A stretch of 64,000 nucleotides of DNA from Microcaldota archaeon (lineage in GTDB: Archaea > Micrarchaeota > Micrarchaeia > Norongarragalinales > UBA97): positions 1 through 64,000 of the forward strand of contig JACQBR010000017.1 of NCBI GenBank assembly GCA_016194335.1, read 5' to 3'. The first letter of the stretch is position 1. Each line of letters opens with the position of its first letter. Both the position numbers and the translations under genes were made by a program. Shown piece after piece: positions 858 to 59,655 of this stretch. The notes beneath the pieces are model-generated. The model was given only the letters and a program-made list of their open reading frames with translations. It was not told the DNA's origin and made no database searches.

Positions 858-1442
858 ATGAATGAGGGAAAGACGCCTATGCCCATTGGAAAGAAACCGC
901 CAGTGATTGACATGCGCCGCGGGAGGGACGGCGTGTACCGGCCAGTCAGGCCGCGCAAACGAATCGGATTACGCCCCCTAATCGTCTCCACCGCCGTCCT
1001 CGCAACAGGCGCCATTGTGCGCGGCGCGTGGAACGCGAATTTCGGGCCCCTGCCCCACCAGGCGTACTACCGCTCGGTCCTGCACAAGCACGGATTCGCC
1101 GAAGAGGACGACCGCGCGCTTGACCACGCCGCGCGCGCAGGCGAAGTACATCCAGCTAACGCTACGAAAACAATTCTCGACAACCCCTTCCCCACAATAG
1201 CCATTAAGGACATTGCGCGCCGGCTCGGGAAACCCAATCTTCCCGCCAGGGAACGCATCCGCCTCCAGCGAGTGCGCGAAATCCTTAGGACCATCAGCCG
1301 CTATCCGGATACCGTTGTGAAAATCATTGAAGAAAAGGCAGGAATAGGCCGGGACAACAGGCCGTATTACCGGCAGGGGACCCCGTACTCGACGCGGGTG
1401 TGGATGGAGAAGGGAAAGCTGAAGACTGCCCCGCTCAAATAA
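858..1442 (+). CDS. Hypothetical protein with one predicted membrane segment
   Basis: This 194-residue protein was not recognised. Residues 1-35 are basic and proline-rich. Residues about 39-56 (LRPLIVSTAVLATGAIV) form one hydrophobic helix, so it is probably an anchored protein with a charged C-terminal domain. ATG at 858 or an internal ATG at 879 are both possible starts. Its 3' end overlaps the convergent lipoprotein gene by 8 bp. The 200 bp upstream (658-857) hold nothing recognisable. Confidence 0.6.
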   Translation: MNEGKTPMPIGKKPPVIDMRRGRDGVYRPVRPRKRIGLRPLIVSTAVLATGAIVRGAWNANFGPLPHQAYYRSVLHKHGFAEEDDRALDHAARAGEVHPANATKTILDNPFPTIAIKDIARRLGKPNLPARERIRLQRVREILRTISRYPDTVVKIIEEKAGIGRDNRPYYRQGTPYSTRVWMEKGKLKTAPLK

Positions 1443-4065
1443 CTTGCACGGGCCCGCCGTATTCGTAAGGCGCGTTTACCTGCACCGAGGCAATGTCATC
1501 AAGCGACGCGAGGTCGCTGGCCTTGACGTAGCGTTCTGACATCGTGTAGAGCGCGTCGCCGATGTAGGCGCTGCGTTCCACGCTTGCAGTGCCGTACCAG
1601 TACTCGCCGGACTTGCCAAGCTCCTCCTTCGTCGCGTGGGTCACGCGGCCTCGGATGGAAAAGCCCGAGTCGAGAGAGACGTTGATGACGTACGCCCCTT
1701 GGAACGCGTAATCGCCGTAGACGTGCTCGGCCTCTCCCGCAGGATATTTGCTTGAATTGAGTTCCGCGAGCAGGACGGGAATGACGATGATTCCCTTCTC
1801 CCTGCTGAAGAGAAACGCCTTGTGGTCGTGCAGCGCGTTGGAATCGGTTCCGGCATCGCCCAATTTCAAGGTGGCCGTTTCCCTGGGATTCGCAACGTCG
1901 CTCACGTCAAAGAGTGAGAGCTTCAGCCCCGTGGGGAATGCTGCGGCTTCCTCCCCATTGGCATCAAGCTTCACCGGAAGCGCGTCCTTGCCCAGCCCGA
2001 TGAGGTGCGTCCCGTCGTAGGGATGCAGGTAGTCGGAATATCCCGGAATCTTCAGCTTGCCCAACATCTCTGGGTTCCTGGGGTCGGAAAGCGAAATGAC
2101 GAAAAGCGGGTCGAGTTGCCTGAACGTAACCATGTACGCCCGGTCGCCCATGAAACGCACGGAATAGATGCGCTCGCCAGGCGCGAGGTTCTCCAGCTTG
2201 CCCGCGAGCTTGAGGCCCGAATCGAGAACGTAGAGGTGGTTCTTTGAAGGCGCGACCTCGCGAGGCTCCGGGCGCGGATACCAGACGGGGGGATAACGGA
2301 TTGGCATCATTGCCATCCCGAGAAACGGCCCGCCTTCCCAGCCGCCCCATTCCTGCGGCGTGGTAGTCGCAATGCGGAGGTAGCCGTCCTTCTCGCCAAG
2401 GGAAAATTGGTTCAGAACGGTGCCGGGAACTTCGCCCTCGCCGGCGTAGCTGATGCCTTCAGCGCCATTTCCAAGCGAGAACTTGTGCACGACGGTCCGC
2501 TGGCGGCTTGAAACGCCAAATTCGGATTGTTCCGGTGATGCCGTTGCGTTAAGCGAGGCCTCGAGATCCCTGTAGAGCTGCGCCTGCTGCTTCCTGCTCA
2601 ATTCGTAGTCGATGAACTGCGCAATGACGGAGTTCTTCAGCGACGCCTTCACCCACGCGGAGGCATCCGAATCGTCAATCTCCTTGAGCTTGCCTTCGAG
2701 CCCCGCATTCGAGTTGGGCTTGACGAGTTCCGCAAGCTTCGCCTCGACTTCGTAAAGCGGGCGGAGGTAATTGTCATAGCGCGCGTAGGTAACGTATGCG
2801 TTTTCCTGCGAGACGTAAATTGTCTGCGCCCCTCCCACGAGGACGACCTTGCGCCCGGCGTCCTTGGAAAGGTCTGCAAGGTCGATTGAGGATAGGATGG
2901 TGAACTGGTAGCCCCCGGAAGAGGGGTAGTCGAAGTAGCTCACTTCCGAAGCGTCGACCTCCACAATTTTACCGTCAACGGAAAGGAGTGGCACCGGACC
3001 GCCGTAGTAAGCGGGCTGGGACACGACGGTGAACACCCTGCTGCCAATCATGCGCGCGTCGGCGTAATTGCCGTTGAACACCACGGTCTTGAGAACCTCT
3101 GGATTGGCGCGGTCGGAAATGTCGTACACGCGGACGAACGAAGAGCCGCCATACCAATACGGACGGCGCGCCATAAAGCCGGGCGCGGCAATTGCCCTGG
3201 CGGCTGGCACGGAACCAGAAGATGCGGCTGCCGAACCAGAAGGCGCCTCTGAAACCGAGGCGGGTCCCGAACCGGAAAATGAACCTGGAGCACCCGATGC
3301 GGGCGCGGAACCGGAACTTCCCGAAACTCCCGAATCCGCCTGAACGCCCCCGGCATCACTTTGGTTTGGAGGGGCAAGCGCCTTGTCAACCTGCGCGTTT
3401 CGAATCGTTGGAATTTCCCTTATCGGCCATGGGTAATTTGCCGTGCCGAACGCGACGAGTTTGTCGCCGTTGACGAAAATGCTGTTGACCGAATCGCCGG
3501 CGTAGTAACCGGGAGCGAAACCCCCATTCGCGCCATTACCCCCGGAAGGCTTGCCGCCGATGCCCGAAACGCTGATGTTGGAAACGACCTTCAAATCGCT
3601 TGCGGGCGCCGCCTTGAGAATCACGATGTTGCCCCCCGCAACTGCGTAGAGGTAATTCCCGTCGTTCTTGAGAATGTCCGGCTCGTCAACGCCCGCAACC
3701 TGCACGTTGGTGGTGGAATAATCAGAAACTGAAGAGGCCGGAGCGTTTGAGTCTGCAGACTTTTGAGACGCGCCAGCAGCAAGAGGAACCGCGGCTTCCC
3801 TCATCAGCCCGCCATAACCGCCGTAATTGCCGCCCTGCTGGGTGGCGCGGAGGAACGAAGCGAGCTCAAGGCCGGATTTGAATTGCTTGAGCGACGAGCC
3901 TGGAGTTTCGTTATAGGCAGCCGGGAAAGAACTTGGGGAAACCGACGGGGCTACCGTAGGCGTGGGGCTGGCAACTGGATTGCGTTGGGTGATGCAGCCC
4001 GCGAGAAAAAGCGGCGGGAGAGCCATCAGGAGCAAAACCAACTTGGGACCGAACTTCAAGGCCAT
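1435..4065 (-). CDS. Secreted beta-propeller-domain lipoprotein
   Basis: The protein starts with a lipoprotein signal peptide: a hydrophobic run ending LFLAGC, where the cysteine would be lipid-modified. A Ser/Pro/Thr-rich linker follows, then a long domain matching the archaeal and bacterial secreted C-terminal beta-propeller family, with the hallmark NVQVAGVDEPDILKNDGNYLY. A low-complexity Gly/Ser/Ala/Pro segment (about residues 240-295) interrupts the propeller. An upstream TTG at 4083 is in frame, but ATG 4065 with AGGTGG about 9 nt before it gives a clean signal peptide. Function is unknown; it is likely exposed at the cell surface. Confidence 0.85.
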   Translation of the reverse strand: MALKFGPKLVLLLMALPPLFLAGCITQRNPVASPTPTVAPSVSPSSFPAAYNETPGSSLKQFKSGLELASFLRATQQGGNYGGYGGLMREAAVPLAAGASQKSADSNAPASSVSDYSTTNVQVAGVDEPDILKNDGNYLYAVAGGNIVILKAAPASDLKVVSNISVSGIGGKPSGGNGANGGFAPGYYAGDSVNSIFVNGDKLVAFGTANYPWPIREIPTIRNAQVDKALAPPNQSDAGGVQADSGVSGSSGSAPASGAPGSFSGSGPASVSEAPSGSAAASSGSVPAARAIAAPGFMARRPYWYGGSSFVRVYDISDRANPEVLKTVVFNGNYADARMIGSRVFTVVSQPAYYGGPVPLLSVDGKIVEVDASEVSYFDYPSSGGYQFTILSSIDLADLSKDAGRKVVLVGGAQTIYVSQENAYVTYARYDNYLRPLYEVEAKLAELVKPNSNAGLEGKLKEIDDSDASAWVKASLKNSVIAQFIDYELSRKQQAQLYRDLEASLNATASPEQSEFGVSSRQRTVVHKFSLGNGAEGISYAGEGEVPGTVLNQFSLGEKDGYLRIATTTPQEWGGWEGGPFLGMAMMPIRYPPVWYPRPEPREVAPSKNHLYVLDSGLKLAGKLENLAPGERIYSVRFMGDRAYMVTFRQLDPLFVISLSDPRNPEMLGKLKIPGYSDYLHPYDGTHLIGLGKDALPVKLDANGEEAAAFPTGLKLSLFDVSDVANPRETATLKLGDAGTDSNALHDHKAFLFSREKGIIVIPVLLAELNSSKYPAGEAEHVYGDYAFQGAYVINVSLDSGFSIRGRVTHATKEELGKSGEYWYGTASVERSAYIGDALYTMSERYVKASDLASLDDIASVQVNAPYEYGGPVQVI

Positions 4066-10704: not shown

Positions 10705-10980
10705 GGGCCCTTAGTATAGCCTGGACTGGAAACGGCCTAAACGCCGTTTGACAGAAAGAATGAGAGCTTGCGGAAAACGCGGGTGAAGGGAATGCGGGAA
10801 AAAACGCCCGGCGTTTGCATACAGCTCTAGACCTGGGTTCGAACGAGGGACTTCGCAATTTTTCTCCTCGCCCTTCACTGGGCTCGTCGATAAAATTGCT
10901 CGTGCCCCTCGACCCCTTTGCGGGTTGAGGCAGCCTCTTTATTTGGCTCGAAGTCTTTCACGAAAATCCCAGAGGGCCCG
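10705..10980 (+). tRNA. tRNA-Arg(GCG) with introns in the D-loop (probable), anticodon loop and T-loop
   Basis: Acceptor GGGCCCT (10705-10711) pairs with AGGGCCC (10973-10979); the discriminator is G10980. The anticodon stem AGAGC (10763-10767) pairs with GCTCT (10824-10828) around loop TTGCGG|A, giving anticodon GCG. The 37/38 intron (10774-10822) has a 6-bp inner helix AAACGC/GCGTTT and a near-complete bulge-helix-bulge. T-stem CTGGG (10833-10837) pairs with CCCAG (10968-10972), and a 123-nt intron (10844-10966) interrupts the T-loop at 59/60 with a perfect TTCG/CGAA central helix. A third intron, about 10727-10756, is likely in the D-loop because it contains a 7-bp hairpin and its removal gives a 74-nt tRNA. 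The resulting D-stem (GTAT/GAAT) is weak, so that junction is tentative. Confidence 0.88.
10844..10966 (+). other. T-loop (59/60) intron of tRNA-Arg
   Basis: The 123-nt insert lies between A59 and T60. The exon TTCG (10838-10841) pairs perfectly with intron CGAA (10961-10964). The bulges are AA|C and AA|T. The inner stem GAGGGACTTCG pairs over 11 positions with bases 10949-10959. Internal sequence shares blocks GGGACTTCGC and GCTCGTGCCCC with the tRNA-Lys T-loop intron at 59521. Confidence 0.85.
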
Positions 10981-14917: not shown

Positions 14918-15784
14918 ATGGAAAACGGTTTTCGCGCGCTTGCCGCGGCGCTTGTTTTCGCTTCTCTCTTCGCCCACCCCGCGGCATCTTCGTACGTGAA
15001 GATAATCGAGCCGGTGCAACTGACCGTGCAGGCGTCCCAGGCGGGAACCCCCGAATCTGAAATCGACTTGGGCCTCGTGGGCCCGGGCCAGACGGTCGAA
15101 CTCATCGCATCGCGCTCCACGGGGGAGATAAGCCGCAATAACGAGACCCAAAGCCGCAACGAGGCCACATGGGACCAGGTTGAAGTGCTCAGGGACAAGC
15201 TTCCCCTCGGCTGGGTGGGGCAGGACAGCCTGCGGTTTGAAGACCCGATGAAGCCCGTAATCGTGGTCGCAAAACAGGCGCCCGACGGGGAGTACGAATT
15301 CATCCTCAAGGCACGCGACGATTACGAAGGCACGCCGCCGCTTTACTTCAACGCAAAGGCGCGCGTCTCGCGCAGCGTCTTGGAGGCGAGGATTGCCGGC
15401 GAGCCGGTCAAGGCCGAGCCCCGCAGCCAAGTGGCGTACCAAATAGAACTGAACAACCTCGGAAGCGCCAACGACGTTTTCGAAGTCAAGGTCTCCGGCG
15501 TGCCGAAGGAATTGGAAACTGGCAAAACTTTCCTCGTGCCCCACAACTCCAAAAAAACCTTTGATTTTACCATTCAGGCCCCGGAGTCGGGCGAATTCCC
15601 CCTCACGTTTACCGTCACTTCCCTCTCGAGCCCTGCGATAACCTCGACCGCACGCACGACCCTCTTTGTCGGCTCGAGCCTGCTCACCGACATGAAGGCC
15701 GCGGCGAGGGGCGTGCTTCTCTTCCCCAGCGCGCAGGTCGTGGCGTACTCGCTGCTCGCGTTCATCGGGAGCGTAATGAGATAG
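14918..15784 (+). CDS. Secreted or membrane-anchored protein with CARDB/NPCBM-like beta domains
   Basis: From ATG 14918 the 288-residue protein has a signal peptide (residues about 5-25, ending near AHPAASS). Beta-rich extracellular domains follow; the segment around NLGSANDVFEVKVSGVP resembles the NEW3/CARDB adhesion fold. A C-terminal hydrophobic helix (VVAYSLLAFIGSVM) has almost no cytoplasmic tail. A TATA-like TTTTTAACC at about 14883 fits a short leader. It may be a cell-envelope protein anchored at its C-terminus. Specific function unknown. Confidence 0.65.
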   Translation: MENGFRALAAALVFASLFAHPAASSYVKIIEPVQLTVQASQAGTPESEIDLGLVGPGQTVELIASRSTGEISRNNETQSRNEATWDQVEVLRDKLPLGWVGQDSLRFEDPMKPVIVVAKQAPDGEYEFILKARDDYEGTPPLYFNAKARVSRSVLEARIAGEPVKAEPRSQVAYQIELNNLGSANDVFEVKVSGVPKELETGKTFLVPHNSKKTFDFTIQAPESGEFPLTFTVTSLSSPAITSTARTTLFVGSSLLTDMKAAARGVLLFPSAQVVAYSLLAFIGSVMR

Positions 15785-59424: not shown

Positions 59425-59655
59425 GGGCCCGTAGCTCAGTTTGGCCAGAGCACTCGAAGGGATGTTTGGAAAGCAAACGCCCGTTGGTGAAGCTCTTAAC
59501 CGAGGCGTCGTGGGTCCGAAAGGGGGACTTCGCGTTTTGTTCGTCGCTATCGCTCCTCTCAAAACGCTCGTGCCCCCCTACCCCTCTGTGGCGTAAGGGG
59601 GTGCGTTTAACTCGGCTTTTTGCCGAGGTCTTCCTCCGAAATCCCACCGGGCCCG
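59425..59655 (+). tRNA. tRNA-Lys(CTT) with introns at 30/31 and in the T-loop
   Basis: Exons: 59425-59456, 59492-59520 and 59642-59655, giving 75 nt. Acceptor GGGCCCG/CGGGCCC, discriminator G. D-arm GCTC-AGTTTGGCCA-GAGC. Anticodon stem CTCG+G/CCGAG with loop CTCTTAA. The 35-nt intron at 30/31 has central helix CACT/GGTG and an inner GTTTG/CAAAC stem. T-stem GTGGG/CCCAC. The 121-nt T-loop intron starts after A59. The T-loop reads TCCGAAT, with C instead of the near-universal T at position 55. No CCA is encoded. Confidence 0.93.
59521..59641 (+). other. T-loop (59/60) intron of tRNA-Lys
   Basis: The 121-nt insert follows A59. Its ends form a 12-bp helix (59521-59532 with 59624-59635, including two or three G-T pairs). 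The central helix TCCG/CCGA has one C-C mismatch. Blocks GGGACTTCGC and GCTCGTGCCCC are shared with the tRNA-Arg T-loop intron at 10844, and both introns are 121-123 nt. Confidence 0.82.

Follow-up and report, generated by a model that had tools for sequence, protein, structure and literature searches.

Probable spread of a BHB intron family among tRNA genes in a Micrarchaeota lineage, with copies outside tRNA genes

Introduction

Transposition of tRNA introns is known from the Thermoproteales (Fujishima et al. 2010, as presented in passages of PMC4090602 and PMC4033280). For archaeal tRNA introns, such transposition is inferred in the literature without a mechanism (PMC4090602). Closer to the organism studied here, ARMAN-1 and ARMAN-2 harbor tRNAs with multiple introns at non-canonical positions. 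They belong to the same phylum and have the same type of splicing endonuclease, but the passages of PMC4033280 considered here describe no intron family spreading between tRNAs in them. In Caldiarchaeum, intron gain was linked to a repeated element and tRNA genes, and integration of a plasmid-like element was proposed (PMC3293823). Eukaryotic introners are introns that likewise derive from inserted dispersed elements (PMC11782384).

Here, we describe a family of introns in the tRNA genes of a micrarchaeon, starting from tRNA-Arg and tRNA-Lys in a 64,000-nt stretch of DNA (the window). The genome under study (G000; 1.18 Mb, 85% complete) was compared with relatives denoted G001, G003, G006, G012, and G026. 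As in the Thermoproteales, similar introns occupy tRNAs of different isotypes, both canonical and non-canonical positions are used (37/38 and 59/60 in a single tRNA-Ser gene), and relatives have insert-free orthologs, the comparison for tRNA-Gln being with a relative's Gln(CTG). The present case differs from that system in host and enzyme, a micrarchaeon and its epsilon2 endonuclease taking the place of the crenarchaeal host and its (alpha beta)2 enzyme. In addition, some copies are not located in tRNA genes, and some intron bodies consist of a dispersed repeat. No large element was seen beside the introns, unlike in the Caldiarchaeum model. As with introners, copies of the intron sequence are also found outside introns, although introners are spliceosomal and the introns here are BHB tRNA introns, so the parallel is an analogy only.

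Results

Both tRNA genes were missed by ARAGORN and Rfam in the raw window. The tRNA-Arg(GCG) gene (positions 10705 to 10980, + strand, as for all window features below) contains three introns, and the tRNA-Lys(CTT) gene (59425 to 59655) contains two. With all inserts removed and the exons joined, ARAGORN called tRNA-Arg(GCG) and tRNA-Lys(CTT), whereas it called no tRNA in the Arg gene when the T-loop insert was retained. An earlier note on this DNA had placed inserts of 123 nt (10844 to 10966) and 121 nt (59521 to 59641) between positions 59 and 60 of the T loops, and our coordinates and positions agree with it. The other inserts came in addition to those of the note. In tRNA-Arg, they are a D-loop intron (10726 to 10754, borders ±2 nt) and an anticodon-loop intron at 37/38 (10774 to 10822), both missing from the G003 ortholog. 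In tRNA-Lys, direct reading of the sequence indicated an anticodon-stem intron at about 30/31 (59457 to 59491), which was omitted from the joined tRNA read by ARAGORN.

The two T-loop inserts are homologous. Their local alignment score was 225, compared with a mean of 102 (standard deviation, 14; maximum, 163) for 3,000 dinucleotide-preserving shuffles of the pair. The end-stem GGGACTTCG and the block GCTCGTGCCCC, which the note had listed as common to both, are invariant in this alignment. We assigned the two introns to one family, family A. The conserved core of the family, consisting of GAGGGAC, a hairpin, and CTCGTGCCCCTCGACCCC, spans 10845 to 10916 in tRNA-Arg (98.9 bits with covariance model R1) and, with the same model, 59522 to 59584 in tRNA-Lys, whose intron scored 61.6 bits. 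In the Arg intron, the tip of the hairpin (10864 to 10889) has the form CTCCTCG-CCC..GGG-CTCGTCG with tandem U.C mismatches, and this tip recurs in dispersed repeats of the genome.

Folding the Arg insert together with the T arm gave a minimum-energy structure with a BHB exactly at the borders proposed in the note, with a UUCG:CGAA central helix and AA|C and AA|U bulges, whereas the Lys insert yielded a degenerate BHB. We then counted pairs at ten junctions from this genome and its relatives. The exon helix has all five pairs at each of the ten. The central helix has four of four pairs at eight junctions and three of four at two, namely Lys of this genome, where the imperfection is a C.C mismatch, and Ser of G003. 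Bulges comprise three bases on each side, and four of the ten junctions have one more base beside the central helix. In G026, the Glu T loop reads UCCA and the intron end UGGA, a matched change that retains pairing, and the first intron pair of Gly is C-G instead of G-C. The copy at 37/38 of tRNA-Ser has the same body with another 3′ end, CAGG, which pairs with CUUG, and its intron helix beside the bulge is weak (3/5). Joining exons gave correct readings for Arg, Lys, Ser, Gln, Leu, and three tRNAs of G026.

CGAA is repeated at both intron ends, but, as TTCGAA is a palindrome, a target-site duplication would show the same pattern here as splice complementarity. The end of the Glu intron is the complement of the exon rather than a copy of it, which argues against simple duplication. 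No Rfam family, be it a group I intron or another catalogued RNA, reached its gathering score in the window, and the introns, of at most 123 nt, contain no open reading frame of at least 100 aa and are too short for a homing-endonuclease gene.

Using the Arg insert as a query against the whole genome, we found matches with 92 to 96% identity at C11:65008, C11:64890, and C17:33229; these genomic copies were located by searches only. The two on contig C11 lie approximately 120 nt apart inside one gene, tRNA-Ser(TGA), one at 59/60 in the T loop and the other at 37/38 in the anticodon loop. They are 97% identical to each other, as close as any pair. The third match interrupts the T loop of another tRNA, which reads Gln(ttg) once its exons are joined. 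The family thus occupies five places in the tRNA genes of this genome, divided between two kinds of site. The core hairpins of the Ser, Gln, and Arg copies are 92 to 97% identical. A third match in the window, at 15505 to 15550, lies inside a protein-coding frame and was rejected, and plasmid records contained no match.

A covariance model built from the five cores recovered all of them and two extra copies, neither surrounded by a recognisable tRNA. One (C12:19130-19194, 50.4 bits) starts immediately 3′ of the stop codon that closes a 101-aa frame; the other (C17:3564-3633, 32.7 bits) is upstream of an intact tRNA-Asn. CTCGTGCCCCTCNACCCC is conserved beyond the needs of splicing, and these solo copies keep it with few changes. 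The inner hairpins, in contrast, vary freely in length and sequence. Covariation within the intron body is thin, with one compensatory pair among five sequences. A stretch resembling the 3′ half of a tRNA, GGGTTCGAA..ATCC..GGAGCCCACC, was observed 3′ of the solo copy on C12 (L077, approximately 1395 to 1450, minus strand), with no 5′ half nearby.

Only 16 tRNAs scored above the Rfam cut-off in this genome, whereas 30 to 39 matches at an E value of ≤1 were obtained in four of the five relatives searched, suggesting that tRNA interruption is unusually heavy here.

The note had proposed a search of the genome and its relatives for further copies, and both yielded them. All relatives with the family are Micrarchaeota (Candidatus Micrarchaeota), and they hold five copies. 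G026, from another family of the same order, has the 59/60 intron in Lys(TTT), Trp(CCA), Glu(CTC), and Gly(TCC); the Lys, Glu, and Gly isotypes were confirmed after exon joining, and Trp is a reading of the sequence. In G003, from another genus of the same family, an intron is found at 37/38 of Ser(TGA), with a hairpin that differs from that of the present genome. We also built a second covariance model, mostly from the relatives' copies, and applied it to 301 genomes of the phylum with strict filters that weak copies may escape. Strong matches were obtained in 3 of the 301, this genome included. Weak matches in G168, G187, G225, and G264 (23 to 28 bits) were set aside, as the sequence examined held no tRNA context. 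Exact-pattern matches on viral contigs were also discarded (14 to 24 bits with the family model and no tRNA, the best one, L280, being chance-like), as were genome-scan matches in Methylobacterium and Akkermansia, which had low family-model scores. Two other sequences were noted in relatives. G006, from another family of the order, has a minimal form, GAGGGACTTCGTCCCCTCAACCCC, outside any evident tRNA (C64:3622-3647), which may be due to chance. G012 (Micrarchaeota CG1_02_51_15) has a longer, solo-like copy, GGGGGACGTCGCC ... GTGCCCCTCTACCCCTC, with no recognisable tRNA (C20:65110-65163).

Comparison with relatives indicates the direction of change. Arg(GCG) of G003 is intron-free, and the 59/60 site of its Ser(TGA) is empty. 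In G003 and G001, the sole insert of Lys(CTT) is in the anticodon loop, and in G026 this tRNA has no insert. The 59/60 site is also uninterrupted in relatives' Lys(TTT), Glu(CTC), and Gly(TCC). As the T-loop inserts are missing from orthologous or same-isotype tRNAs, they were gained. The Ser T arm is identical to that of the G003 ortholog, and the Gln T arm to that of Gln(CTG) in G001. The note had left the choice between intron spread and gene conversion, and it had taken the GGGCCC start common to the Lys and Arg acceptors as a sign of the latter. However, GGGCCC is already present in the intron-free Arg(GCG) of the related genus. Since the exons match those of their own insert-free relatives, the intron appears to have moved and not the tRNA. 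Spread is thus supported and goes further than the note proposed, with five tRNA copies in this genome and five in relatives. Conversion of whole tRNA genes is not supported, as the exon flanks are not common to the host tRNAs. Conversion limited to the intron body may have occurred. Within this genome, the bodies are so alike that introns could have recombined with one another.

A second family of sequences was uncovered through the hairpin tip. The motif CTC[C/G]TCG..CTC[G/C]TCG, in which U.C mismatches stand in tandem and the central pair is flipped, is repeated across the genome. In the stretches at hand, the central bases are complementary in 16 of the 19 cases with pairable inner bases. 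Several cases fall within a palindromic repeat of approximately 80 bp that is represented by roughly ten good copies. One copy makes up most of the 59/60 T-loop intron of tRNA-Leu(TAA) (C2:51107), and another accounts for most of the tRNA-Ile(TAT) intron in the D loop (C18); the G003 counterparts of both tRNAs are without these inserts. Other copies adjoin tRNA genes at the 3′ end (Ala, Ile, and Trp) or lie 3′ of stop codons, with 3 to 20 nt between the stop codon and the measured motif.

Repeats of this type were observed at C18:77001-77085, C2:73066-73144, C15:76376-76427, C2:66715-66779, and other places (L262 to L272), directly 3′ of stop codons or tRNA 3′ ends and mostly in the sense orientation. 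The repeat could be a 3′-end RNA element or a transposable element. An antisense copy (C8:79921-79998, L265) fills the 80 bp immediately 5′ of tRNA-Val(CAC), the expected place for the promoter of that gene.

We also looked at the splicing endonuclease. One gene codes for a 431-aa protein that matches tRNA_int_endo twice and aligns over nearly its full length with the Micrarchaeum epsilon2 endonuclease 4fz2 (E = 9.5e-124). As judged by this similarity, the genome encodes an enzyme of the epsilon2 type, which is reported to accept relaxed sites. According to the relevant passages of PMC4033280, epsilon2-type endonucleases cleave relaxed, non-canonical introns at varied positions, and a structure from 2025 credits a lineage-specific loop for this property (PMC12397907).

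Discussion

The T-loop inserts of tRNA-Arg and tRNA-Lys are best explained as BHB tRNA introns that are excised by the archaeal endonuclease and belong to one family that has spread among the tRNA genes of this Micrarchaeota lineage, a reading to which we give a probability of about 0.86. This reading is based on the homology of the inserts, the BHB geometry of the junctions, counterparts that lack the insert, the multiplicity of the copies, the presence of some of them elsewhere than in tRNA genes, and the type of endonuclease. Splicing probably takes place at these sites in cells, and copying would transfer the intron body but not the arms of the tRNA.

UUCG is part of nearly every tRNA T loop. 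The last four paired bases of the intron, CGAA, would form the central splice helix with it, and the T stem itself would serve as the outer helix. Wherever a copy inserts at 59/60, in nearly any tRNA, it would therefore be spliceable at once, without adaptation, which makes the 59/60 family portable. The partner sequence differs at 37/38, and this would account for the altered 3′ end of the Ser copy at that site on an otherwise identical body.

Among other explanations, the inserts may have been homogenised, without any independent mobility, when tRNA genes or introns underwent gene conversion or recombined ectopically. The Ser, Gln, and Arg cores closely resemble one another and the Ser 37/38 hairpin of G003 is different, in a manner reminiscent of concerted evolution, and the closeness of the two Ser copies fits as well. 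Nevertheless, the exon arms differ between hosts, those of Ser and Gln match their own insert-free relatives, and conversion alone could yield neither a second position nor the non-tRNA copies. Thus, we regard it as a possible but doubtful sole cause. The conservation of CTCGTGCCCCTCNACCCC, including in the solo copies, might instead reflect a functional small RNA housed in the inserts, such as a modification guide. This appears unlikely, given that the window holds no Rfam family at threshold and that the inner hairpins are free to vary.

Vertical inheritance of an ancient T-loop intron with loss in most relatives could explain why related introns exist in two families of the order. It is very improbable, however, because the host tRNAs differ by lineage, every checked counterpart is empty at 59/60, and strong matches are so rare in the phylum. 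Least probable of all, the inserts might not be introns, and the genes might be broken or carry unspliced insertions. The contigs do come from an incomplete genome, but the BHB is perfect or near-perfect at every junction, a full cloverleaf is obtained once exons are joined, and no intact second copies of the interrupted tRNAs exist among the recognised tRNA genes of this 85%-complete genome.

The repeat found in the Leu(TAA) and Ile(TAT) introns points to dispersed elements as a possible source of intron bodies. A putative kinship between the 59/60 family and the 80-bp repeat would be based on their common hairpin tip. Taken together, the repeat in these introns, its other copies standing alone after gene ends, and the tip common to the 59/60 family raise the tentative idea that short dispersed hairpins behave like introners, inserting near or into genes and turning into BHB introns in tRNA loops.

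What we describe is an event of the kind known from the Thermoproteales, in another phylum and with added evidence on the source. New features are the lineage, the presence of copies beyond tRNA genes, and the dispersed palindromic repeat that forms two further intron bodies. The spreading of introns is thereby extended to Micrarchaeota, whose endonuclease is unlike the crenarchaeal one, and this fits with relaxed endonucleases permitting introns to accumulate. The T-loop UUCG, by providing half of a splice site in nearly every tRNA, may be the reason why 59/60 is favoured. With its recent gains matched by insert-free relatives, its non-tRNA copies, and a repeat of which intron bodies are made, this genome offers a concrete system in which the mechanism of archaeal tRNA intron gain can be tested.
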